This document shows, one piece after another, positions 31,226 through 64,000 of a stretch of DNA of 64,000 nt. The notes under the pieces are model-generated. The model made no database searches, was not told the origin of the DNA, and saw only the letters and a program-made list of their open reading frames with translations. Where the stretch lies: contig JAHRVB010000148.1 in NCBI GenBank assembly GCA_019090895.1, positions 1 to 64,000 of the forward strand, read 5' to 3'. Position 1 is the first letter of the stretch. Each line of letters begins with the position of its first letter. The stretch comes from Kangiellaceae bacterium. GTDB taxonomy: Bacteria > Pseudomonadota > Gammaproteobacteria > Enterobacterales > Kangiellaceae. The position numbers and the translations under genes were made by a program.

Positions 31226-32227
31226 ATGTCATTCGAAAGTCTAATGAAACAAGAAGCGACTGAAGCTCCTCAACGAATCGCAGAGCAGCTTGTAGCCAAT
31301 ACTGCTCGTGTAAGAAGTATCAGCGACAAAATTAGGGAATTCAATCCTTATTCAGTCATGTTTGTTGGAAGAGGTTCATCGGATCATGCTGGAACTTTCG
31401 CTAAGTATCTGATTGAAATAGAACTTGGTATCGCAACATTTTCCGCCGCGCCATCGATAGCGACTATTTACAATTGTTCACTCGACTTGTCAAAGAGCTT
31501 AGTACTTATAATCTCTCAATCTGGCCGTAGCCCTGATATCTTGCAGCAAGCAGAATCGGCAAAGAAATCTGGAGCGCTTTGCGTCGCATTGCTTAATGAT
31601 GAATCCTCACCACTAGCAGAAATAGTTGATTTTGTAATTCCTCTTTCAGTTGGTGAAGAAAAATCAGTAGCTGCGACTAAAAGCTATCTTGCAACGCTTG
31701 CTGCGATGATGCAGCTGGTGGCATATTGGAGTCAAAAGAAAGAACTAATAGATTCTCTCATGCAAATCCCAGAAGCGCTGCAATCGGCTGTAGAGTCGGC
31801 TCCATCTCTATCCATCAATAACTTAAATAATGTTAGAAACTTGGTAGTACTCGGGCGAGGGCTTGGTTTTGCCGCAGGTAAAGAGATTGCACTCAAGCTT
31901 AAAGAAGTTTGTTCTATTCATGCAGAGTGTTTTAGCAGTGCAGAATTTTTACATGGACCAGTTACATTGGTAGATGATAAATTTATAATCATTAACTTGA
32001 AGGTAGAAGATGAGTCTTATTGCACTCACAACGAGCAATGTGTCGAAATAGCGAATCGAGGAGCTGTTATGCTAGATTTAAAACAATCAAGTTCTGACTT
32101 TCATCAAAGGCTCGGTGTGTTTATGATCTTGCAAAGGTTTTATCTCGATATAGAATTAATAGCGGTGCAGCAAGGACTTGATCCCGATCTACCGAAAGGG
32201 TTAAAGAAAGTGACCGAAACTATCTAA
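31226..32227 (+). CDS. nagB-II: Glucosamine-6-phosphate deaminase, SIS-domain type (NagB-II)
   Basis: A 333-residue protein of two SIS sugar-isomerase domains, resembling the isomerase half of GlmS. Motifs MFVGRGSSDHAGTFAKYLIE and IISQSGRSPDILQQAE bind the sugar phosphate; EEKSVAATKSYLATLA and FSSAEFLHGPVTLV follow. In marine gammaproteobacteria this protein replaces the classical NagB and converts glucosamine-6-phosphate to fructose-6-phosphate and ammonia. It is followed by nagA, nagP and a LacI-type regulator, which settles the function, and is preceded by a palindromic operator. Cytoplasmic. No NagK-like kinase is found in the window, so GlcNAc phosphorylation must come from another locus. 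Confidence 0.88.
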   Translation: MSFESLMKQEATEAPQRIAEQLVANTARVRSISDKIREFNPYSVMFVGRGSSDHAGTFAKYLIEIELGIATFSAAPSIATIYNCSLDLSKSLVLIISQSGRSPDILQQAESAKKSGALCVALLNDESSPLAEIVDFVIPLSVGEEKSVAATKSYLATLAAMMQLVAYWSQKKELIDSLMQIPEALQSAVESAPSLSINNLNNVRNLVVLGRGLGFAAGKEIALKLKEVCSIHAECFSSAEFLHGPVTLVDDKFIIINLKVEDESYCTHNEQCVEIANRGAVMLDLKQSSSDFHQRLGVFMILQRFYLDIELIAVQQGLDPDLPKGLKKVTETI

Positions 32228-32338
32228 CGTCAGGATAACAAATACTACCCCCTTACTTTTCTACAAAGCATTAAAAAGTATTGATTTCACGTGTTCGACT
32301 AACCCATAGCTAATTAGAGTCAGAGTAATTTTATTATT

Positions 32339-33457
32339 ATGAATAAGAATAGTTTTTCAGTTGAATTTTTATTTGATGGCAATTCAATTAGGCAGCATCA
32401 AACAGTTACTCTCTGTGATGATGTTATCGAGTCCATAAAACCATGGAACTCGACGGGTGAACTGTTATCTGGTCTATTAGTACCGGGATTGATCGATATA
32501 CAAGTCAACGGAGGAGGAGGAGTGTTATTTAACGCAGAACCTAACCTCAATGCGATCAAAATAATTGCAAAAGCACATAATCAATTCGGTACAACGGGGT
32601 GGCTACCAACCCTTGTTACGGATAGTTTTGAAAAGATGGAAGTCGCGGCCGAAGCGGTGATTCAAGCCCGCAAAGACCCATACAACGGTGTATTAGGGAT
32701 TCATTTTGAAGGCCCCTTTTTGTCGAGCGAGAAAAAAGGTGTTCATTCTGCACGATTAATGCGGCAGCTCGACGAAAAAGATATCGCGCTGTTTACGCAA
32801 CAGGGGCTAGGTATTGTCTTGTTAACTGTAGCACCGGAACGAGTGACAGACGAACAAATAAAGAAACTCACTGACTCTGGCGTCATCGTTTCATTAGGTC
32901 ATAGTGCTGCAAGCTATGAAGATGCGAGAAGTGCACTGGGAGCTGGAGCAACGGGCTTTACTCATTTATACAATGCGATGTCTCCTTTAGGTTCTCGTGA
33001 ACCCGGAATGGTTGGCGCTGCTCTGGCAAGTAGTGATACTTTTTCTGGCATTATTTTAGATGGTATTCATGTACATGCAGCTGCTGCAAAAGTGGCTTTT
33101 CAATCGAAGACAAATCTAGTTTTAGTAACCGATGCAATGCCGCTCGTAGGCAGTGAAGAAAATGAATTCGATTTCTTTGGGCAGTCTATTTTAAGAAATA
33201 ATAATCGTCTTACGGATAAGGATGGCCGATTAGCAGGGTCTACGCTGGATATGTTATCCGCAGTAAGAAATGCGGTTAAAATGCTAGATATAGAACTCAA
33301 GGATGCGGTTAATTTAGCTTCAAATTCTCCAGCTCGGTTTCTTGGTGTTGAAAAAAAATATGGAATGTTGTCAGAAGGTTACCAAGCGAGCATGATATTG
33401 ATCGATGAAACTGAGAAATTGCAAGCGAGTTGGTGTGAAGGAAAAAAGCTAATCTAA
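32339..33457 (+). CDS. nagA: N-acetylglucosamine-6-phosphate deacetylase
   Basis: A 372-residue NagA, normal length. Family motifs in order: GLIDIQVNGGGGVLFN, GIHFEGPFLSSEKKGVHS (metal Glu), VSLGHSAASYEDA, GFTHLYNAMSPLGSREPG, IILDGIHVHAAA and LVTDAMPLVG (catalytic Asp). It removes acetate from GlcNAc-6-phosphate in the cytoplasm, feeding nagB-II. The gap of 111 bases from nagB-II shows no terminator, so co-transcription is likely. Part of a chitin or peptidoglycan amino-sugar pathway with the NagP importer downstream. Confidence 0.95.
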   Translation: MNKNSFSVEFLFDGNSIRQHQTVTLCDDVIESIKPWNSTGELLSGLLVPGLIDIQVNGGGGVLFNAEPNLNAIKIIAKAHNQFGTTGWLPTLVTDSFEKMEVAAEAVIQARKDPYNGVLGIHFEGPFLSSEKKGVHSARLMRQLDEKDIALFTQQGLGIVLLTVAPERVTDEQIKKLTDSGVIVSLGHSAASYEDARSALGAGATGFTHLYNAMSPLGSREPGMVGAALASSDTFSGIILDGIHVHAAAAKVAFQSKTNLVLVTDAMPLVGSEENEFDFFGQSILRNNNRLTDKDGRLAGSTLDMLSAVRNAVKMLDIELKDAVNLASNSPARFLGVEKKYGMLSEGYQASMILIDETEKLQASWCEGKKLI

Positions 33458-33590
33458 TAACCAGAATGCCTGACACTTTCTTAACTTCTCGAAACTGAGT
33501 CAAGATAAGTACTTTATTTCAAATATAAAAATAAGAATAAATACAGAAAATGTCAGTTTATAAAAACTAAAATAGTGAGGATGAAAATGC

Positions 33591-34892
33591 ATGAATACCA
33601 TTAATCAAAATAAGACCACACACACTTTCGGGCCAATGATTATTATTGGAATCCTATTCTTTATTTTCGGTTTTGTTACTTGGCTAAATGGTTCGCTTAT
33701 TCCTTTTTTAAAAATAATCTGTAATTTAAATGACTTTCAAGCTCTTTTTGTAACGTTTGCATTCTATATCGCTTATACAGTGATGGCCTTACCGATGGCA
33801 TATGTGTTGAAAAAAACCGGATACAAAAACGGAATGGCAATCGGTCTTTTTATTATGGGAGTAGGTTCATTAATCTTTATACCTGCCGCACTCAGTGCAA
33901 GTTATGTGGTTTTTCTAGTTGCTTTATTTGTGCTTGGAACGGGCTTAACCATTCTCCAAACAGCCTCTAATCCGTACGTTGTTCTATTAGGGCCTCATGA
34001 AAGTGCAGCAATGAGGATAAGTATCATGGGGCTCATTAATAAAGGAGCTGGGGTAGTCGTTCCTTTAGTCTTTACGGCCGTTGTACTTTCCGGATTAGAC
34101 AGCACCTCTGGCGAAGCGCTAGAGCAATTGACGACCGAAGAACTAAAAAGTTTATCTGGGAGATTGGTAGAACCCTACATTTATATGGCTGTGACAGCAT
34201 TTTGTTTGATTGGTTTAATTCGATTTACTCACCTACCAGAAATCGAAATTGAAGAAGATGAGGCACAGCAAGACAAAACGGGGATTATTCAATATCCACA
34301 GGCTATTTTGGGCTCCATCGCGCTATTTGCATACGTTGGTGTGGAAGTTATTGCAGGAGACACTATCGGTTTATTCGGGTCGCAGTTAAGTGTTAATCAT
34401 TTCGCATCGCTGACTTCATACACCATGGTATTTATGGTGATCGGGTATTTGATTGGAGTGATTTGCATTCCCCGTTTTTTAAGTCAGCAGAGTGCTTTAA
34501 TCGGCTCAGGTATTGCTGGTATTTTATGTACAGTATTGATTTTAACAAGTTCGTCTAGTTCTAATTTGGTATCCGATTTTATCTGGGGCTGGTCCGGTAT
34601 TGCAATTATTCCAGATCCTATCTTTTTTGTCGCATTAATGGGCTTAGCACATGCATTAGTTTGGCCTTCTGTTTGGCCGCTAGCACTAAAAGGACTTGGT
34701 CGATTTACTGCGCAAGGATCGGCGCTATTGATAATGGGGATTTCAGGAGGGGCCGTTCTTCCTTTATTGTTTGGATATTTATCTGAAAGTTCTGGGAATA
34801 TTCAAGGGGCTTATTGGGTCGCAATCCCGTGTTATTTATTCATCCTTTTTTACGCCGTTAAAGGGCATAAAATGCGAAGTTGGGGAGCTTAG
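33591..34892 (+). CDS. nagP: N-acetylglucosamine MFS permease NagP
   Basis: A 433-residue major-facilitator sugar transporter of the FucP/GluP group, about twelve spans. Early motifs FFIFGFVTWLNGSLIPFLK and FALFVTFAFYIAY-like residues, then LGTGLTILQTASNPYVVLLG, mark the family. In Shewanella and related genera the member within nag clusters imports GlcNAc across the inner membrane. The ATG at 33591 has GAGG ten bases upstream; an ATG at 33581 is in another frame. Followed 51 bases later by the LacI-type regulator. Cargo inferred from context. Confidence 0.9.
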   Translation: MNTINQNKTTHTFGPMIIIGILFFIFGFVTWLNGSLIPFLKIICNLNDFQALFVTFAFYIAYTVMALPMAYVLKKTGYKNGMAIGLFIMGVGSLIFIPAALSASYVVFLVALFVLGTGLTILQTASNPYVVLLGPHESAAMRISIMGLINKGAGVVVPLVFTAVVLSGLDSTSGEALEQLTTEELKSLSGRLVEPYIYMAVTAFCLIGLIRFTHLPEIEIEEDEAQQDKTGIIQYPQAILGSIALFAYVGVEVIAGDTIGLFGSQLSVNHFASLTSYTMVFMVIGYLIGVICIPRFLSQQSALIGSGIAGILCTVLILTSSSSSNLVSDFIWGWSGIAIIPDPIFFVALMGLAHALVWPSVWPLALKGLGRFTAQGSALLIMGISGGAVLPLLFGYLSESSGNIQGAYWVAIPCYLFILFYAVKGHKMRSWGA

Positions 34893-34943
34893 ATATTTTG
34901 TTCCAAGACCTTGTAGAAAAAGTCGGTTGAGGTCATTCAAGTT

Positions 34944-35978
34944 ATGACTTCGACCATTAACGATGTAGCGAGGCATGCTGGCGTCTCCATGAAGACCGTT
35001 TCCCGTGTGATAAATAATGAACCTTCTGTAAGAATATCGACTCTAGAGAAGGTTCGAGCCTCAATTAAAGAACTTAACTACCGTCCCAATAACTCAGCGA
35101 GAAGTTTGGCTGGAACGCGCTCATATACCATAGGATTCATTTATGATAATCCGAATGCTTATTATGTGATTGATATGCAAAATGGTATTTTATCTGAATG
35201 TAAGAATAATAATTTTGAGCTGTTGATACATCCATGCAACCATAAATCTTCCGATATAAAGCAAGAGTTAACTAATTTAATAAATCACTCGAGAATCGCA
35301 GGGGTGGTGTTAACGCCACCGTTTTCTGAAATGCCGATGGTCTCTGAATTGTTAGAAAATTTGAGTCTTCCTTACGTTCAAATAGTCTCTGGAAGAGATG
35401 AAGTAGGGCGGAGTGATTCAAGTATTCTAATCGACGATTTCCAAGCCGCCTATGATATTACCGAGCATCTGATAGAGCTAGGGCACCGGAATATAGGGTT
35501 TCTATGTGGTGGTCGAGAACATATGTCGAGTATTGAAAGGTTAGAAGGATTTAAAGCAGCGTTAGCTACTAACGGTATTAATTTGCGTAAGCGGTCGGTC
35601 TTGGAGGGAGAGTATTCGTTTAATTCAGGTGTTGTAAATGCAAAAAAACTGCTTTTCAGAAAAGAAAGGCCCAGTGCCATTTTTGCCAGTAATGATGAAA
35701 TCGCAGCGGGAGCATTGTTCGCAGCTCGGTTAGAGGGAATAGACATACCACGAGAACTTTCGATCGTTGGATTTGAAAACAGTCCTTTTTCTAGACAAAC
35801 ATGGCCAAAATTAACCACAGCACATCAGCCTAATGAATTAATAGCGCAACAAGCTGTAAGTTTGTTAATCGCAAAAATTCAAGGACGCTCGAAGGATTAC
35901 ATTGAGGACAAACAATTACTGAGGAGATTCAAACCGGCGCTAGTGGTAAGAGATTCTACCTCAAAGAAAAACTCATAA
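34944..35978 (+). CDS. nagR: LacI-family regulator of the nag cluster
   Basis: A 344-residue LacI/GalR repressor. The N-terminal helix-turn-helix and hinge are complete (TINDVARHAGVSMKTVSRVI, then LNYRPNNSARSLAG at about 48-61). The periplasmic-binding-protein-like core would sense a sugar effector, here most likely GlcN-6-P or GlcNAc-6-P. It is the last gene of the nag cluster and the likely binder of the palindrome at 31149-31170. In Shewanella-type bacteria a LacI regulator called NagR controls this pathway in place of the ROK-family NagC. Assignment by context. Confidence 0.88.
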   Translation: MTSTINDVARHAGVSMKTVSRVINNEPSVRISTLEKVRASIKELNYRPNNSARSLAGTRSYTIGFIYDNPNAYYVIDMQNGILSECKNNNFELLIHPCNHKSSDIKQELTNLINHSRIAGVVLTPPFSEMPMVSELLENLSLPYVQIVSGRDEVGRSDSSILIDDFQAAYDITEHLIELGHRNIGFLCGGREHMSSIERLEGFKAALATNGINLRKRSVLEGEYSFNSGVVNAKKLLFRKERPSAIFASNDEIAAGALFAARLEGIDIPRELSIVGFENSPFSRQTWPKLTTAHQPNELIAQQAVSLLIAKIQGRSKDYIEDKQLLRRFKPALVVRDSTSKKNS

Positions 35979-56235: not shown

Positions 56236-57450
56236 ATGAGAATTTCAACGTCCCAAATTACTAGCGCCGGCATACGAGAAATGTTGTTGCGGCAAGCAGA
56301 AATACAGCACACTCAACTGCAATTATCAACACAGCTCAGGGTCTTGAAGCCATCGGACGACCCTGTGGCAGCTACCGCTATTAGTGCGCTTACAAGCGAG
56401 ATTGCGCAACTAGAACAATTTAACAGAAATAGCGATGCGGCTAAAGCGAGTAACGAATTAGAAGAAACTATATTAGGCAGCTCTACCGATATATTGTTTA
56501 GGATGAGAGAGCTAACGGTTGCTTTAGGTAATGGGTCGTATACCCAAAATGAATATAATAGTATCGGAGTTGAGCTTGAAGAAGGGCTAAAAGAGTTATT
56601 GGGTCTTGCCAATAGTCGGAATGCGAACGGCGACTATATATTTAGTGGAGGACAAGTCGATTCAAAGAGTTTTATAAAAGATGCAGCGGGTAATATTAGC
56701 TATAACGGCGATCAAAACCAACGATTGCTAAGAATCAGTAGTGGCGTAGTAACTCAAGTATCCGACTCAGGTTTTGATGTTTTTGTAGACATAAAAAATG
56801 GTAATGGTGCTTTTACTATTAATTCAAATACAGCCAATACGGGGGGAGCGATAATAACTCAAGGAAGCTACCAGGCTCCGCCTAACTTTTTGGCTGAACC
56901 TTACTCGATAACTTTCGCGACCGATGCTAGCAACAATACTACATATACTGTAACAGGCGATGTTAGTGGGACAACATTCGTTCCCGCTACAATCTACGAA
57001 CCTGGGAACGCCATTAGTTTTAATGGAGTAACCGTTGAAGTGAGTGGTGAGCCAGATGCCGGGGATATCGTTGGTGTCGCTCCGAGCCAGTCTCAAAGCG
57101 TATTTTCCGTTGTACAAGATGCTATTAACGCCATCGGTCAATTCGACGACACCGAAGCTGGGCGCGCAGAATTTTCTAATCGCATGACGAATGTTCAAGA
57201 ATCGTTAAATAATAGTCTCGATAATATCAATATTGTCCGCGGAAGACTTGGTGGACGCTTAAATGCAATTGATTCAGAATTTGATAGTAATCTAAATCAA
57301 ATTGCAACTAATAAGAGTAGTTTGTCCGACGTGCGAGATTTAGATGTCATTGAAGCGTCGACAAGGTATTCTCAACAGTTAGTAGTGTTAGAAGCGGCAC
57401 AAGCCAGCTTCGTAAGAATCCAAGGACTTAGTTTATTTAATTTCTTGTAG
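56236..57450 (+). CDS. flgL: Hook-filament junction protein FlgL (HAP3)
   Basis: A 404-residue HAP3. MRISTSQITSAGIREMLLRQ and TQLRVLKPSDDPVAATAISA open it; LNNSLDNINIVRGRLGGRLN-like and DVIEASTRYSQQLVVLEAAQ close it, as in flagellin-like junction proteins. It links FlgK to the filament. Its stop lies one base before the GTG of the glycosyltransferase gene, which indicates coupled expression. Confidence 0.95.
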   Translation: MRISTSQITSAGIREMLLRQAEIQHTQLQLSTQLRVLKPSDDPVAATAISALTSEIAQLEQFNRNSDAAKASNELEETILGSSTDILFRMRELTVALGNGSYTQNEYNSIGVELEEGLKELLGLANSRNANGDYIFSGGQVDSKSFIKDAAGNISYNGDQNQRLLRISSGVVTQVSDSGFDVFVDIKNGNGAFTINSNTANTGGAIITQGSYQAPPNFLAEPYSITFATDASNNTTYTVTGDVSGTTFVPATIYEPGNAISFNGVTVEVSGEPDAGDIVGVAPSQSQSVFSVVQDAINAIGQFDDTEAGRAEFSNRMTNVQESLNNSLDNINIVRGRLGGRLNAIDSEFDSNLNQIATNKSSLSDVRDLDVIEASTRYSQQLVVLEAAQASFVRIQGLSLFNFL

Positions 57451-57451
57451 T

Positions 57452-59917
57452 GTGTTTTTGTTGCGCACTAAGCACTGTGTTTTATATAAGGTGAAAACTA
57501 TTTTTTTACAAAAGGCAATTAAGCTTCATCAACAGGGGAACCTTAAAAAAGCTAAACAATTCTATGTGAAAGCCATTAAGGATAATAAAGGGAATGCCCA
57601 AGCGCACTATTTGCTTGGTCTTTTATATCAGCAAGAAAGAAAGTTTATTGATTCTTCGAAACACCTCAAAAAATCTTTGGAATTGGTTCCCACTGACTTG
57701 CTAGTATGCAATGCATTTACGAATCTGCTAAGCATTCAGAATAAGCATGTGCAATTGCAAGCTTACGTAAAGTCTCAGATTAAAGAAAAACTGTTCGATG
57801 AAGCACTTGTTCTAAAGCTAGCGAGTTCTTTTGTGAAAACCGGTGATTATAGTTCCGCTCTTAAACAATTTAAATCCGCGATCAGTATTAATGCAATTAG
57901 TTGGACGGCTTGGTTAGGCGTAGGTAATTGTTTGTTTAGTTTAAAAAAATATACCGAGGCAATTTCGTCTTATCATAAAGTCCTTGAAATTATTCCCGAT
58001 CAAATCGACGCACAGAACAATATTGGAGCGATCTACATTGAGCAGAATAAACTGGTTGAAGCCACCAAGAATTTTGAGAACATAGTAAGGAAAAAACCTA
58101 AGTATCCACCGGGTTGGTACAATCTAGCAGTAATATCATCAAGTTTGAATCAAAATGAACACGCTGAGAACTTTAACAACAATGCACTTGTTCTAAATCC
58201 GCATTACCTAGATGCTTTACTTTTAAAATGCAAGTTACTTATTTTTCGAGGCGAATATGCTTGTGCGCTCGAACAATATAATGACATTCTTGATAAGGTA
58301 GGCGAATCTAATACTGTATTTAACGATATAGGAAACTTGTACTTCAAAATTGGCGACTATCGAAATGCAAAGTTGTACTACAAAAAATCGGTCGAATCTT
58401 GTATTGGTTATACTGACGGATTATTTAACTTGGCCAACACCCAAATTCAATTAAAAGAACACCCCGAAGCAGTTAAGACGCTTCGAGAAGTTGTATCTCT
58501 CCAACCCGGCTATCATCAAGCATGGCCGTTGTTACTCCACTGTTTAAGGCAATGTTGTCTTTGGGCTGATATCTCGCTAGCTCAAAAAAATGTTCGACAG
58601 TTACTGAAAAACAATCAGAATGTGACAATTCCTCCCTTTAGCTTAATTACGCTAGACGATAGTACTAATCAGGAGCAAAAGCTGGTGGCCCAACACTGGC
58701 TTATGAACCAAAAATCAGTAATCGAACTCGCGAAAAAATCTAATGAAAATGCTAGTCATTTAACTGAAAGTTCGGTGCTGAATATTGAAAGAAAATTGGT
58801 AAGTAAAGTTGCAATTGAGAGTGATGTTAAAGAAACAAGAATTAGGCTGGGCTATTTATCATCTGACTTTCATCAACATGCAACTGCTCATCTTATCGTT
58901 CGCATGTTAGAACTTCATGACCGAAGTCGTTTTGAAGTGTTTGGCTATTCTTATGGACTTAATGATAAATCACCGATGCGCGGACGGTTAGTAACGGCCA
59001 TGGAGCACTTTAAAGACATGTCTTCGATGACTGATGAGGATATGGTTAAGAGTATTAAGAAAGATGAAATTGATATATTGATTGATTTAAAAGGCTTCAC
59101 ACAAAATAGTCGTTCACATATTCTTGTCAATCGATTGGCTAAAGTTCATATTAATTTCTTAGGTTATCCAGCGACAATGGGTCGTGAGTTAGTCGACTTT
59201 ATCTTGTGCGATAAATACATTAATTCATCAGGAGCTGATCAATTCTTGGAGAAAGCACTTGTGATGCCAAATTGCTATCAACCGACCGATAATACTAGAA
59301 GTATATTAATGGCACCGTCTAGAGAATCACAAGGAATACCTAATGATTCCTTTGTATTTGGAGCTTTTCATCAGTCATATAAGTTGTCCAAAGAAGTTTT
59401 GGATTGTTGGTGTAGTATTTTATACAAATGTGAATCATCAGTACTATGGTGCTTAGGCACTAATGAAGTTGCTAAACAACAAATAATAGAAAGAGCTAGC
59501 CAAAATGGAATTGATGAACAGCGAATTATCTTCGCTTCAAAGGTGTCTCAAGCAGAACACATGGCCAGGCTTCAGTTGGTAGATTTAATGTTGGATACTT
59601 ATCCCGTTAATGGGCATACAAGTACTAGTGATGCACTTTGGGCTGGAGTTCCTACTATTACTAGTTCAGGTGACACGTTTGTCTCCAGAGTCGCAGGTAG
59701 TTTATTGGGTGCAGTAGGATTAGAGTGTTTAGTGTGCGATAGTTTAGATAAATATAAAAATGTGGCGGTCAACTATGCTACCAACGAAAAAGAGTTATTA
59801 AAACTAAGACGTGAACTGCAGTCTAGTGCAAAAAGCAAGCCGTTGTTTGATACCGAAAATTATACTAAGGATTTTGAACAGCTGTTATTGACTACCCTAC
59901 TTATTGAGGAGGAGTGA
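57452..59917 (+). CDS. TPR protein with GT41 O-GlcNAc-transferase-like domain
   Basis: An 821-residue protein. Residues about 15-400 are tandem tetratricopeptide repeats (for example AQAHYLLGLLYQQERKFIDS and ISWTAWLGVGNCLFSLKKYT). Residues about 465-815 match the SPINDLY/OGT catalytic fold: LGYLSSDFHQHATAHLIVRM, INFLGYPATMGRELVDFILC, then NGHTSTSDALWAGVPTITSS and FVSRVAGSLL, the UDP-binding signature. OGT-type enzymes attach N-acetylglucosamine to Ser/Thr of proteins. Its start abuts flgL, and flagellin genes converge on it, so flagellin glycosylation before export is the likely role. The GTG at 57452 lacks a clear ribosome site; a GTG at 57491 is an alternative. It overlaps the end of the GNAT gene by 17 bases on the other strand. 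Confidence 0.88.
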   Translation: MFLLRTKHCVLYKVKTIFLQKAIKLHQQGNLKKAKQFYVKAIKDNKGNAQAHYLLGLLYQQERKFIDSSKHLKKSLELVPTDLLVCNAFTNLLSIQNKHVQLQAYVKSQIKEKLFDEALVLKLASSFVKTGDYSSALKQFKSAISINAISWTAWLGVGNCLFSLKKYTEAISSYHKVLEIIPDQIDAQNNIGAIYIEQNKLVEATKNFENIVRKKPKYPPGWYNLAVISSSLNQNEHAENFNNNALVLNPHYLDALLLKCKLLIFRGEYACALEQYNDILDKVGESNTVFNDIGNLYFKIGDYRNAKLYYKKSVESCIGYTDGLFNLANTQIQLKEHPEAVKTLREVVSLQPGYHQAWPLLLHCLRQCCLWADISLAQKNVRQLLKNNQNVTIPPFSLITLDDSTNQEQKLVAQHWLMNQKSVIELAKKSNENASHLTESSVLNIERKLVSKVAIESDVKETRIRLGYLSSDFHQHATAHLIVRMLELHDRSRFEVFGYSYGLNDKSPMRGRLVTAMEHFKDMSSMTDEDMVKSIKKDEIDILIDLKGFTQNSRSHILVNRLAKVHINFLGYPATMGRELVDFILCDKYINSSGADQFLEKALVMPNCYQPTDNTRSILMAPSRESQGIPNDSFVFGAFHQSYKLSKEVLDCWCSILYKCESSVLWCLGTNEVAKQQIIERASQNGIDEQRIIFASKVSQAEHMARLQLVDLMLDTYPVNGHTSTSDALWAGVPTITSSGDTFVSRVAGSLLGAVGLECLVCDSLDKYKNVAVNYATNEKELLKLRRELQSSAKSKPLFDTENYTKDFEQLLLTTLLIEEE

Positions 59918-60374
59918 GTATTTTCCTAGCCGTGTGGGCTACAGAAAAATAGCCGTTTGCTTGCCAAAATGACCCAACTTCTTTATTTTTTTCGGTAAAA
60001 GAGCATTCAACATAATTGATCCCAAGTTCCTTGAAACAGGTTTCTACATTTTCCAATAAATGCTTTGCGAATTTTTGTTGACGATAGTGAGGTTCCACCC
60101 ATAAAAGTTGAACAATGCCCTTAATTGGATCGGACAAAAATCCATTATCATTGATACTGCTAGATGAAGCGATGAAGCCAACGGGGTTACCTTTTACCTC
60201 TGCAATCAAAAGTAACGAGTTAGAAGAGAGTATTTCGGCTTCAATCCAACGTTTTAAATTCAACTCGAAGTTCGGATGATAGATTAATTGGCCGTCATTT
60301 TCGTATTTTTGTAACCGGGCGGTAAATTCGGTAATTATGTCTAAATCTTTAATATCACACTGACGTATTTTCAA
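59901..60374 (-). CDS. GNAT acetyltransferase at the end of the fli operon
   Basis: A 157-residue GNAT protein. The acetyl-CoA loop is VEPHYRQQKFAKHLLENVE at about 95-113, after the strand GIVQLLWV, and the C-terminal NKEVGSFWQANGYF is typical. It lies three bases after fliT in the minus-strand fliD operon and overlaps the converging GT41 gene. The place suggests acetylation of flagellin, of a flagellin glycan, or of a flagellar chaperone, but general detoxifying GNATs look the same, so the acceptor is unknown. Confidence 0.8.
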   Translation of the reverse strand: MKIRQCDIKDLDIITEFTARLQKYENDGQLIYHPNFELNLKRWIEAEILSSNSLLLIAEVKGNPVGFIASSSSINDNGFLSDPIKGIVQLLWVEPHYRQQKFAKHLLENVETCFKELGINYVECSFTEKNKEVGSFWQANGYFSVAHTARKILTPPQ

Positions 60375-60377
60375 GTC

Positions 60378-60692
60378 TTAGTTGCCCTGAGTTGTTCGGT
60401 ATGAATTAATAGCAGAATGAGAGAGCTTTAAATTCAAGCTACTCTTTATCATTTTTTGCTTAACAAGTGCTATTGTTGATTCAATTTCTGTATCGGATTT
60501 TCTTACAATATCAAATATTTCTTGGGCGTTATTTTTATTTCGACTAAAGTCGTTTTCCGAAAAGTACTGCTTAATGAATTTGTCGCGTCTAATACTTAAA
60601 TCGAATAAAGCGTCCCATTTTCCTGCTTCAGCCAAGCGGGAGATGTTCCGATTGAATTCGGTGATTTCTTTGATTAATTTGGTATTATTCAT
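60378..60692 (-). CDS. fliT: FliT-like flagellar chaperone
   Basis: A 104-residue helical protein placed directly after fliS, where FliT stands in many bacteria. The ATG at 60692 (MNNTKLIKEITEFNRNI) is four bases beyond the fliS stop, suggesting translational coupling; an upstream start at 60749 would overlap fliS and is less likely. It shows the FliT-like pattern of two or three long helices with a central RRDKFIKQYF. FliT proteins hold the cap protein FliD before export and sometimes repress the master regulator. Sequence similarity is low, so the call rests on size, helical pattern and position. Confidence 0.65.
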   Translation of the reverse strand: MNNTKLIKEITEFNRNISRLAEAGKWDALFDLSIRRDKFIKQYFSENDFSRNKNNAQEIFDIVRKSDTEIESTIALVKQKMIKSSLNLKLSHSAINSYRTTQGN

Positions 60693-60696
60693 TGGT

Positions 60697-61098
60697 TTAT
60701 GAGTTGCTATTGTTAACTGCTTGCTCTCGGATTCCCTGCCAAGCCTCACGAATGTTATTCATAACATTTAGTACTGAATCTAACTTATCAACATCATTTT
60801 CGATATTAGCGTTTAACAAAGTTGTTGTACTAAATTCGTATAGGGCATTTAAGTTTGAAGATATTTCGCCCCCCTTATCGTGATCGAGACTTGCTTGTAA
60901 TCCATTAATAATCGAAATAGCCCAACTGATATGTTGACCTTTTTGTGCAACTTTATTTTCTGACATAAAGTATTTTGCTTTATTGATTTTTTCGATTGCA
61001 CCATCAATGAGCATTTGAATGAGCATGTGAGGATCTGCATCCTCTACGCCACTAGTGGCGCTTACATTGTTGTAAGCTAAAGCTCCGGTTAAACCCAT
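60697..61098 (-). CDS. fliS: Flagellin chaperone FliS
   Basis: A 133-residue FliS, four-helix bundle. ALAYNNVSATSGVEDADPHM and LIQMLIDGAIEKINKAKYFM carry the family signature (LYxGAIxxxxxA-like), with LDHDKGGEISSNLNALYEF in the middle. It binds the C-terminus of flagellin, encoded at the window's end, and keeps it unfolded until export. 52 bases after fliD. Confidence 0.92.
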   Translation of the reverse strand: MGLTGALAYNNVSATSGVEDADPHMLIQMLIDGAIEKINKAKYFMSENKVAQKGQHISWAISIINGLQASLDHDKGGEISSNLNALYEFSTTTLLNANIENDVDKLDSVLNVMNNIREAWQGIREQAVNNSNS

Positions 61099-61150: not shown

Positions 61151-62527
61151 TTAATCTTTATTACCAAATCCAGGTAGATTGTCGAATTGTTGTTTTATAT
61201 AACTTTGCGTACTATTCAATTGAGCGACAATGGCATCCATCGCTGAAAATTGCTTAATTAAACGAAACTCTAATTTCTCTATTCTAAGCGCAAGATTAAT
61301 TCGGTCGTCATCAATTCTATTCAGCTGCGCATTTAGTGATGTTTCGCGTGATGTAATGACACCACCGCTGCCAGTATAATTACTGATCAGCTCTCTCAGT
61401 TCAGTGGCAAAACCATTGTCACCCGAAAACAGCTCATCAAACTGATCAAAATCTGACGCTAATGCACTGTCCAAGGTTGTATTATCTATTTCCAGATATC
61501 CATCCTGGGTAGTTGAAATACCAATAGAAGACAGGTTACTAAAATTTCCGCTTACGGCTGACACATCGGCTGCAAAGAGATTTCTAATTTGAGAAGACAC
61601 TTGTCGTAAAGTAAAGTCGCCGACCAGAAGTCCTGGTTGGTTAGGATCCGCTGTACCTAGTTGTTTTACCACATCAATATAAGCATTGTATGTTTCGACA
61701 AAACCTGTAATTAATGATTTTGTGCTGCCAGTATCAAGCGCAATTGTCAAAGACTCGGTATTGCCGGGTGTATCCTGAACTTTGGTTACATTAACGGTGA
61801 CATCTTGGATGATATTTTCGAAGGAGTTAGTACTACTGGTTGCAGCAAAACCATCGACTAGAATAGAAGCATCGCTAGCAGCTTGAGTTGAAGTTAACCC
61901 AGTCGACAAATCGGCCAGCGATGCATCACCAGTAAAAGTCACCACCAAATCATTACCTAATCCTAAAGTAGTCGAATCAAAGGTTAAAACACTACCAGTA
62001 TCGAAACCATCGGTCACATTATTAAGTAAGTTGACTGACACAAGATCATTATCGGTTGCTGAGTTTATATTGTTTCTAATATCTTCAAGTGTGTCAGTTG
62101 ATGATACTGAAATATTGAACGTTTCGGCACCGACGGTAAATGTAAGAGTTCCGTCGCCAAAAGTTGAACTGCTTCCACCTGTAAAAACCTGTGATTCTTG
62201 AAAACTTCCTTGAGCGATTGCCGTCACTTCGATGTCATATGCACCAGGAGTGGCATCGCTGGTTGATGTCGCGCTAAAATAATCGCTACTTGAAAGGGTG
62301 ATAGAACGATTTTCATAATTGGATGATAAACTTAAATCTAGTGCGGCAGAGCGCAGTTCGTCGAGCGCGCCGCTAAGTCCACCCAAGCCAGTTAAAGTGA
62401 CGGTAACGTCTGCTTCATGTCGATTTAGGCTATTTTCTTTTGGAGCACGTTCAGCATTAACCAATGCTTCGACAATTGACGAAACGTCTAAACCTGAACC
62501 CAAACCACCTATACTGATCAGTCCCAT
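61151..62527 (-). CDS. fliD: Filament cap protein FliD (HAP2)
   Basis: A 458-residue FliD. The N-terminal block ISIGGLGSGLDVSSIVEALV and the C-terminal coiled region (LEFRLIKQFSAMDAIVAQLN, then STQSYIKQQFDNL) are diagnostic. The outer variable part (about 60-330) is rich in Ser, Thr and Asp. It forms the cap that folds arriving flagellin subunits. A sigma-54 promoter lies about 200 bases upstream. First gene of fliD-fliS-fliT-GNAT. Confidence 0.95.
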   Translation of the reverse strand: MGLISIGGLGSGLDVSSIVEALVNAERAPKENSLNRHEADVTVTLTGLGGLSGALDELRSAALDLSLSSNYENRSITLSSSDYFSATSTSDATPGAYDIEVTAIAQGSFQESQVFTGGSSSTFGDGTLTFTVGAETFNISVSSTDTLEDIRNNINSATDNDLVSVNLLNNVTDGFDTGSVLTFDSTTLGLGNDLVVTFTGDASLADLSTGLTSTQAASDASILVDGFAATSSTNSFENIIQDVTVNVTKVQDTPGNTESLTIALDTGSTKSLITGFVETYNAYIDVVKQLGTADPNQPGLLVGDFTLRQVSSQIRNLFAADVSAVSGNFSNLSSIGISTTQDGYLEIDNTTLDSALASDFDQFDELFSGDNGFATELRELISNYTGSGGVITSRETSLNAQLNRIDDDRINLALRIEKLEFRLIKQFSAMDAIVAQLNSTQSYIKQQFDNLPGFGNKD

Positions 62528-62782: not shown

Positions 62783-62811
62783 AAAAAGGGAGGGTAACCT
62801 CCCTTTTTTTT
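62783..62811. terminator. Rho-independent terminator after flaG
   Basis: AAAAAGGGAGG (62783-62793) pairs with CCTCCCTTTTT (62798-62808) around a four-base loop, with T and A tracts outside. It overlaps the flaG stop codon and on the minus strand ends with TTTTT, closing the fliC-flaG transcript. It could act in both directions. Confidence 0.9.
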
Positions 62812-63265
62812 ATACTTTCTCTCGTAACAAAACACCACTATTACCGGTGTCCTGTTCGTTGAGCTCCTTCAAACGTCTAGAGAGGTTGATGAGTTCTTCT
62901 GGTGGGAACTGTCGGATTAACTCGTCTGTTTCCTTGTCAATAACTCGAACTATAGTGACGCCAAGTTCTTCATCAACTTTAAATTGAAGACTTCTATCGA
63001 TGCTTTGATGAAATTGTTGTAATTCTTCAATTTGGTTTTTTACTTCTTCCTGACTAACTGCGTTCTGCTCTTGATTTGAAACTTCAACTCTATTGTTATT
63101 ATGGGTGTTAATTTTCAGTGTTTCAGTCAATGAAGTTGCAGCATTTTCGTTGGTTATCTCGTCATTTGAAGTCGAAGGTGCTCTTCCTTGGTTGCTATAC
63201 GGCAATTCTCTGCCACTAGCGACCTCGGACGGTTGAAAGTTGCCTGCTAAATTTAAAATAGCCAT
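62810..63265 (-). CDS. flaG: FlaG-family flagellar protein
   Basis: A 151-residue FlaG protein. The first half is low-complexity and polar. The conserved half holds IDRSLQFKVDEELGVTIVRV and IDKETDELIRQFPPEELINL, the FlaG signature. FlaG influences filament length and lies between flagellin and fliD in polar-flagellated bacteria, as here. TGAGGT is nine bases before the ATG. It follows fliC by 102 bases; a weak AT-rich inverted repeat CGTTAAA/TTTAACG (63325-63350) in that gap may cut part of the flagellin transcript. Confidence 0.93.
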   Translation of the reverse strand: MAILNLAGNFQPSEVASGRELPYSNQGRAPSTSNDEITNENAATSLTETLKINTHNNNRVEVSNQEQNAVSQEEVKNQIEELQQFHQSIDRSLQFKVDEELGVTIVRVIDKETDELIRQFPPEELINLSRRLKELNEQDTGNSGVLLREKV

Positions 63266-63367: not shown

Positions 63368-64000
63368 CTACTGTAGAAGCGAAAGTACTGACTGGCTAGA
63401 AGCATTAGCTTGCGCAAGGATTGATAAACCAGCCTGTTGCAATACTTGATTCTTAGCTAATTCTGCTGTTTCTGATGCAAAATCCGTATCACGAATTCGT
63501 GAACGTGCAGCCGATACGTTTTCGATGATGCTACCTAAGTTTGAAATGGTAGAGCTTAATCGATTTTGAATCGCACCTAAATCTGCCCGGTTACTATCAA
63601 CGCCTTGTATCGCAGCATCTAAAACATCTATCGCTAATTGAGCACCTGCTGCTGAAGATATATCGATGTCGTTAACAGAGCTGAATTGACTTTGTTGACT
63701 AGCCGTTGCAAATACTTCAGTGTCACCGGTAGCGAGTGTAACTGCACCTTTGCTGCTATCAAGTGTTAAAGTACCTACTTGAAGTTCAGCAGTTCCTTCA
63801 GCAATACCAGCCGTTGCACCAAAATCAAAAGTAACAGTGTCGGTAGTGACCGCAAATGCTGCTAATGAAATGTCTCGCCCGTCGATTGCTGTCAGAGTCA
63901 AAGATGTTTTGTCAGTAGAACTTGCGAAAGTCGCAGTAATGCCTGTAGACCCTTGTACGCCATTTATTGCCGCAGCAACTTGGGTTAAGTCATTGGCGTT
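63368..64000 (-). CDS. fliC: Flagellin, C-terminal part (cut by window end)
   Basis: The frame is open from the window edge at 64000 to the stop at 63368, giving the last 210 residues of flagellin; the N-terminus lies outside. The C-terminal D1/D0 helices are unmistakable: NRLSSTISNLGSIIENVSAA, RSRIRDTDFASETAELAKNQ and VLQQAGLSILAQANASSQSV, then LSLLQ. The upstream part (for example TLTAIDGRDISLAAFAV) is the surface-exposed domain, rich in Ser and Thr and thus a fair target for the nearby GT41 enzyme. The filament's main subunit. Number of flagellin copies is unknown. Confidence 0.95.
   Translation of the reverse strand, partial: NANDLTQVAAAINGVQGSTGITATFASSTDKTSLTLTAIDGRDISLAAFAVTTDTVTFDFGATAGIAEGTAELQVGTLTLDSSKGAVTLATGDTEVFATASQQSQFSSVNDIDISSAAGAQLAIDVLDAAIQGVDSNRADLGAIQNRLSSTISNLGSIIENVSAARSRIRDTDFASETAELAKNQVLQQAGLSILAQANASSQSVLSLLQ

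Follow-up and report, generated by a model that had tools for sequence, protein, structure and literature searches.

Introduction

The question raised by the locus described here is what a glycosyltransferase of family GT41, joined to a long TPR region, does between the gene of the hook-filament junction protein and the genes of the flagellar filament. The window is the whole stretch of DNA that was analysed, 64,000 nucleotides from a Kangiellaceae bacterium (GenBank assembly GCA_019090895.1, contig JAHRVB010000148.1, positions 1 to 64,000), and the GT41 gene lies near its end (Table 1). The explanation considered best, and held with somewhat more confidence than doubt, is that of a one-gene flagellin glycosylation island in which a soluble GT41 enzyme O-glycosylates flagellin in the cytoplasm. 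The evidence directly in hand consists of the predicted fold, the order of domains, the active-site residues, the gene order, the recurrence of related genes beside fliC clusters and the lack of a strong NeuB match and of any Maf match in the genome. Catalytic activity, the donor, flagellin as the target and the timing before export are what we infer. According to this proposal, the slot at the junction of flgL and the fliC cluster is occupied by a cytoplasmic TPR-GT41 enzyme, whose N-terminal TPR superhelix would bind flagellin (FliC1/FliC2) and whose GT-B domain would take a single sugar from a UDP-sugar and attach it to Ser/Thr in the variable domain of flagellin, so that flagellin would be glycosylated before its export through the flagellar secretion system.

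Table 1. Genes and catalytic motifs at the GT41 locus (positions in the window)
Feature	Position	Strand	Basis or remark
flgL (hook-filament junction), directly upstream of GT41	56236..57450	+	TIGR02550, 280.9 bits
GT41 glycosyltransferase gene, likeliest extent	57491..59917	+	808 aa; start by alignment with homologue N-termini
N-terminal catalytic motif SSDFHQHATAHL	58859..58894	+	D472 = OGT D554, H476 = OGT H558
FHQSYK	59366..59383	+	Q641 = OGT Q839; K644 = OGT K842 = SPY K665 (essential lysine)
UDP/sugar site QAEHMAR...YPVNGHTSTSD	59549..59632	+	H703, R706, H722, T723, D727 kept
GNAT acetyltransferase, convergent with GT41	59901..60374	-	Profile match and same-genus copies
fliT-like gene	60378..60749	-	Position and similarity to same-genus copies
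fliS (flagellin export chaperone)	60697..61098	-	Profile matches
fliD (filament cap)	61151..62527	-	Profile matches
flaG	62810..63265	-	Profile matches
fliC, C-terminal part, runs past window end	63368..64000	-	Complete in L027, 482 aa

The gene and its predicted protein

The longest open reading frame of the GT41 gene (57452-59917, forward strand) is open throughout its 821 codons counted from the first GTG. The original prediction let the gene begin one base after the flgL stop, which is the longest-frame reading of GTG 57452; GTG 57491 is the likelier start, with a gap of 40 nt after flgL, because the N-terminus read from it, VKTIFLQKAIKLHQQGNLKKAKQFY, aligns with the starts of homologues, e.g. 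MKSFEQALQYHQQGKIQEAQAIY in L030. Neither GTG is preceded by a clear Shine-Dalgarno sequence, and a promoter and terminator scan gave no excess of promoters and no terminator between flgL and the GT41 gene. At its 3' end the gene shares 17 bp with the convergent GNAT frame. Recent transfer was considered on grounds of composition and set aside, the GC3 of the gene (0.328) lying inside the range of its neighbours (0.31-0.40).

A TPR-rich protein with a catalytic domain of the SPINDLY/OGT type had been predicted, and profile and structure-sequence searches confirm it. Glyco_transf_41 (PF13844) matches with 264.6 bits (E 1.8e-78, cut-off 25) in two stretches that cover both catalytic lobes, many TPR families also match, and among solved structures sequence matches were obtained to human OGT (7ntf, E 1e-92), SPY (E 7.3e-58) and XcOGT (E 1.2e-51). 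Both catalytic motifs quoted earlier are present, SSDFHQHATAHL at aa 470-481 and NGHTSTSDALWAGVPT from aa 720. In the 808-aa form the TPR superhelix takes up aa ~1-375 and is followed by the GT-B catalytic domain at ~449-808.

A comparison of the predicted structure with human OGT had been suggested as a check. The AlphaFold2 model, computed from an alignment of 57 sequences (pLDDT 89.8, pTM 0.83), predicts a TPR array joined to a GT-B fold as in the solved structures of OGT, XcOGT and SPY. In VIA-align 2 its best solved match is XcOGT (Z 52.5, 537 residues, 2.2 A), followed by TtOGT (Z 43.9), Drosophila OGT (42.4), human OGT (~42) and SPY (~42), and HMW1C-type enzymes score Z ~31.

Active site

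Residues of the GT41 protein are numbered here from GTG 57452 and mapped along the alignment with human OGT, for which numbers are the count along chain 7ntf_A, whose own numbers run 40 ahead. The catalytic residues known from OGT (D554, H558 and K842, the last equivalent to SPY K665; PMC9715652) have their counterparts in D472, H476 and K644, and thus the residues expected of a GT41 member are present. Loss of the UDP-GlcNAc-binding residues had been named as one of the results that would speak against the prediction. The alignment finds them retained for the most part: H901 corresponds to H703, R904 to R706, H920 to H722, T921 to T723, T922 to S724 and D925 to D727, and at the position of K898 there is Q700, this position being variable among other bacterial GT41 members as well. 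Judged by these residues, the active site appears to be of the OGT type and largely intact.

It could be argued that the protein is a TPR scaffold or export chaperone in which catalysis has been lost, as the TPR region makes up nearly half of it and the equivalent of K898 is Gln. This is regarded as very improbable, however, since the equivalents of K842 (SPY K665), H558, D554, H901, H920 and D925 are all kept, the catalytic domain is modelled at high confidence and the glutamine falls at the position that also varies in other bacterial members.

Gene neighbourhood and same-genus genomes

It had been stated that the GT41 gene faces fliC-flaG-fliD-fliS-fliT-GNAT, and this arrangement was borne out, all of these genes lying on the reverse strand and convergent with it, with flgL upstream on the forward strand. 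The fliT-like gene is without Pfam or NCBIfam match. At and beyond the window end there are tandem flagellin genes (L027:7369-8817 and L027:9301-10746) encoding proteins of 482 and 481 aa, both with Ser/Thr-rich central regions. In four same-genus loci (L022, L023, L024, L025) the GNAT gene likewise closes the fliC cluster next to fliT, with or without a GT41 gene, and its product may have a flagellar protein as its substrate. A cluster for GlcNAc use (31226-35975), some 22 kb upstream of the GT41 gene, comprises NagB-II (NF046059) and NagA (TIGR00221) over their cut-offs, a NagP-like transporter under its cut-off and a LacI-type regulator; it is probably unrelated to the GT41 gene.

Six genomes of 75-95% completeness made up the same-genus comparison, and only that of the window holds this GT41 in the flgL slot. 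In G003 and G002 the slot is empty and flgL is directly followed by the convergent GNAT-fliT-fliS-fliD-flaG-fliC cluster. Between flgL and GNAT of G001 (L022:14977-17412) there is a gene, oriented like flgL, for an unrelated 811-aa CARDB-domain protein. In G004 another PF13844 gene is part of an island of sugar genes next to the flagellin genes, whereas G005 has beside fliC a distantly GT41-like protein of 655 aa (no Pfam match, a weak profile match), its flagellin region also containing aminotransferase, methyltransferase and acyl-ligase genes. The junction between flgL and the fliC cluster is a place which takes accessory genes in this genus. A glycosyltransferase gene stands inside the filament gene region and the slot differs among G001-G003, as in a glycosylation island, but the sugar-biosynthesis genes that usually, though not always, accompany such an island were not recognised anywhere between flgL and the far side of the second flagellin gene, so that it is a minimal island at best. 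With no sugar-nucleotide genes beside the GT41 gene, the sugar is not readable from context.

Among the six, NeuB gives a strong match only in G001 and G003, both of which lack GT41. The matches in the other same-genus genomes, that of the window included, are weak (E about 1e-11 to 1e-13) and are presumed to be relatives of DAHP/KDO-8-P synthases, and Maf found no match in any of the six. The distribution hints that GT41 may replace a nonulosonate route within the genus; it stays at a hint because the sample is six genomes of the completeness given above.

Wider occurrence of GT41 relatives

A genome contig scan with the protein returned no close homologues, and whole-genome searches in the family, order and class gave relatives of at most 43% identity, with matches confined to the catalytic region or to the C-terminal portion, for which reason conservation of the flgL-GT41 pair is not directly traceable. 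Strong matches were uncommon at the thresholds used: among the 394 genomes of the order three others had one, and among the 368 of the class 18 did. GT41 stands beside fliC with flaG, fliD or fliS in four of 20 neighbourhoods (L063, L068, L071, L078), and flagellar filament genes lie within 10 kb of GT41 in six of 80 loci (L084, L113, L131, L132, L138, L154). By chance 0.1-0.2 would be expected for the 20 loci and 0.4-0.8 for the 80, taking 20-kb neighbourhoods in a 4-Mb genome with one or two flagellin clusters; these figures are approximate, as the loci are non-random, short contigs are frequent among them and Rhizobacter supplies two of the six flagellar loci. GT41 relatives recur beside fliC clusters more often than by chance, across Proteobacteria and in unrelated lineages. 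On the catalytic-domain tree the flagellar copies group together, their label requiring 6 changes against 14.4 in shuffles, but the starred branches force only 2. Two of the flagella-adjacent genes (L068:7971-12410 and L071:8570-12985), divergent from fliC, each consist of one open reading frame of ~1,470-1,480 aa that contains a pair of GT41 catalytic regions.

The original prediction also saw a special tie to flgL and proposed a survey of flgL-GT41 adjacency. The tie had to be given up: in the same genus the slot has no gene or a different one, and among the flagella-adjacent relatives in the 20 and 80 loci none adjoins flgL.

These results bear on a further explanation, namely that the substrate of GT41 is a protein other than flagellin (FlgL/FlgK, an adhesin or some target in the cytoplasm) and that the slot behind flgL is merely tolerant of insertions. 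Most of the strong GT41 relatives in the survey are away from flagellar genes, and the same slot holds the CARDB-domain protein in G001 and nothing in G003 and G002. Yet relatives adjoin fliC clusters well above chance, and G004 and G005 also possess GT41 or distantly GT41-like genes beside fliC, so this explanation is thought unlikely. The window GT41 itself forms a deep, long and isolated branch of the catalytic-domain tree with no near kin, and no full-length homologue beside flgL was found; because of this, flagellin is proposed as the target by analogy alone. The recurrence beside fliC clusters, together with published islands (PMC4875605), makes the GT41 protein probably a flagellin modifier.

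The sugar donor

The residue distinguishing GlcNAc-using from fucose-using enzymes is C917 in OGT and Y744 in SPY, and the same gate position is Y463 in XcOGT, Y419 in TtOGT and F517 in ApHMW1C (PMC9715652). In the window GT41 it is V719, and the tyrosine by which a SPINDLY-type O-fucosyltransferase excludes GlcNAc is therefore not there. Valine being small, there should be room for an N-acetylhexosamine in the sugar pocket, and such a donor is sterically plausible. Among 125 bacterial GT41 domains the gate is Y in 75, C in 19, V in 18, F in 10 and I in 3, which makes the small gate a minority state, and the trait flips often (26 two-state changes on the catalytic-domain tree). A correlation of the gate with flagellar location was considered and dropped: flagellar copies with C or V are found in L084, L113, L131, L132, L138 and L063, but in others the gate is Y or F, and it switches state frequently along the tree. 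On a Hyphomicrobiales contig (L115) at least six GT41 domains stand in tandem, and Y, V and F gates are mixed among closely related neighbours.

The same enzyme with the same class of target could use a donor different from UDP-GlcNAc and transfer either a hexose or a deoxy-amino sugar whose synthesis is encoded at another place in the genome. Bacterial GT41 donors are diverse, HMW1C using UDP-glucose and XcOGT and TtOGT being poor with GlcNAc (PMC9715652), a wider specificity was held possible by De Maayer & Cowan (PMC4875605), and the frequent changes of the gate point in the same direction. On the other hand, the gate is Val and not aromatic as in SPY, XcOGT, TtOGT and HMW1C, the genome of the window is without a strong NeuB or any Maf match, and sugar-modification genes are absent near the GT41 gene. 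Such a donor is considered possible, if clearly short of an even chance. For the flagellin-modifying enzyme proposed here, a UDP-N-acetylhexosamine is the favoured donor in view of the small Val719 and the conserved residues of the UDP site.

A more far-reaching version would have a free-standing bacterial OGT with an open, OGT-like sugar pocket transferring O-GlcNAc from ordinary UDP-GlcNAc to flagellin, perhaps also to FlgL/FlgK, with no dedicated sugar pathway and in replacement of the nonulosonate route that some genomes of the genus suggest; it is offered tentatively, as rather doubtful. If it is true, the gene neighbourhood would reveal the native O-GlcNAc substrate of a bacterial GT41. 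The earlier claim of O-GlcNAc-type glycosylation of flagellin or junction proteins stands as far as a probable flagellin modifier with a small, GlcNAc-compatible gate is concerned, but "strongly suggests O-GlcNAc" was too strong, because it is not settled which donor bacterial GT41s prefer (XcOGT, TtOGT; PMC9715652).

Significance and comparison with known systems

Islands in the flgL-fliC slot, GT41 enzymes in flagellin glycosylation islands and flagellin glycosylation directed by TPRs are already known, and the arrangement as such is a fairly ordinary example; what stands out is its single-gene form together with an OGT-like gate residue. The native substrates and donors of bacterial GT41s are largely unsettled, and here the gene of an enzyme with an OGT-like pocket lies beside that of a defined candidate substrate. 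A small versus an aromatic gate can serve as a testable predictor of GlcNAc use by bacterial GT41s. The gain is modest, as GT41 in flagellin islands has been published: such enzymes, with GlcNAc suggested as the sugar, were described in 2016 from 198 enterobacterial strains (PMC4875605). The opinion that bacterial GT41 enzymes are little studied is therefore correct for their biochemistry but not for their genomic link to flagellin islands. The literature search, which excluded subscription journals, found no experimentally proven flagellin GT41.

The islands of De Maayer & Cowan share with the present locus a GT41 (SPINDLY/COG3914) domain, the filament gene region and a proposed role as flagellin glycosyltransferase; they differ in that most of their GT41s carry methyltransferase domains and the islands contain further sugar genes (PMC4875605), whereas here a lone gene, whose product has a long TPR region but lacks a methyltransferase domain, lies between flgL and the fliT end. 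In Pseudomonas aeruginosa the flgL/fliC slot likewise holds variable glycosylation genes, but these islands comprise several genes (PMC4020848) and not one gene convergent with the fliC cluster. XcOGT of Xanthomonas campestris (XCC0866) resembles the window GT41 in its TPR and GT41 fold and in the UDP site, and departs from it in the gate (Tyr463, not Val) and in a shorter TPR region; XcOGT and TtOGT have little or no O-GlcNAc activity (PMC9715652). Human and Drosophila OGT have in common with it most active-site residues, the small gate and the TPR superhelix, although identity is ~24-29% in structural alignments, no intervening domain separates the catalytic lobes of the window protein, K898 is replaced by Gln and the context is that of bacterial flagella. 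Modification of flagellin before export has a precedent in Aeromonas Maf1 (PMC4065374). Caulobacter FlmG is also a soluble TPR and GT-B enzyme, whose TPR domain binds flagellin and directs its cytoplasmic O-glycosylation; FlmG requires pseudaminic acid (PMC7591256), in contrast to the genome of the window with its lack of a strong NeuB-type synthase match.
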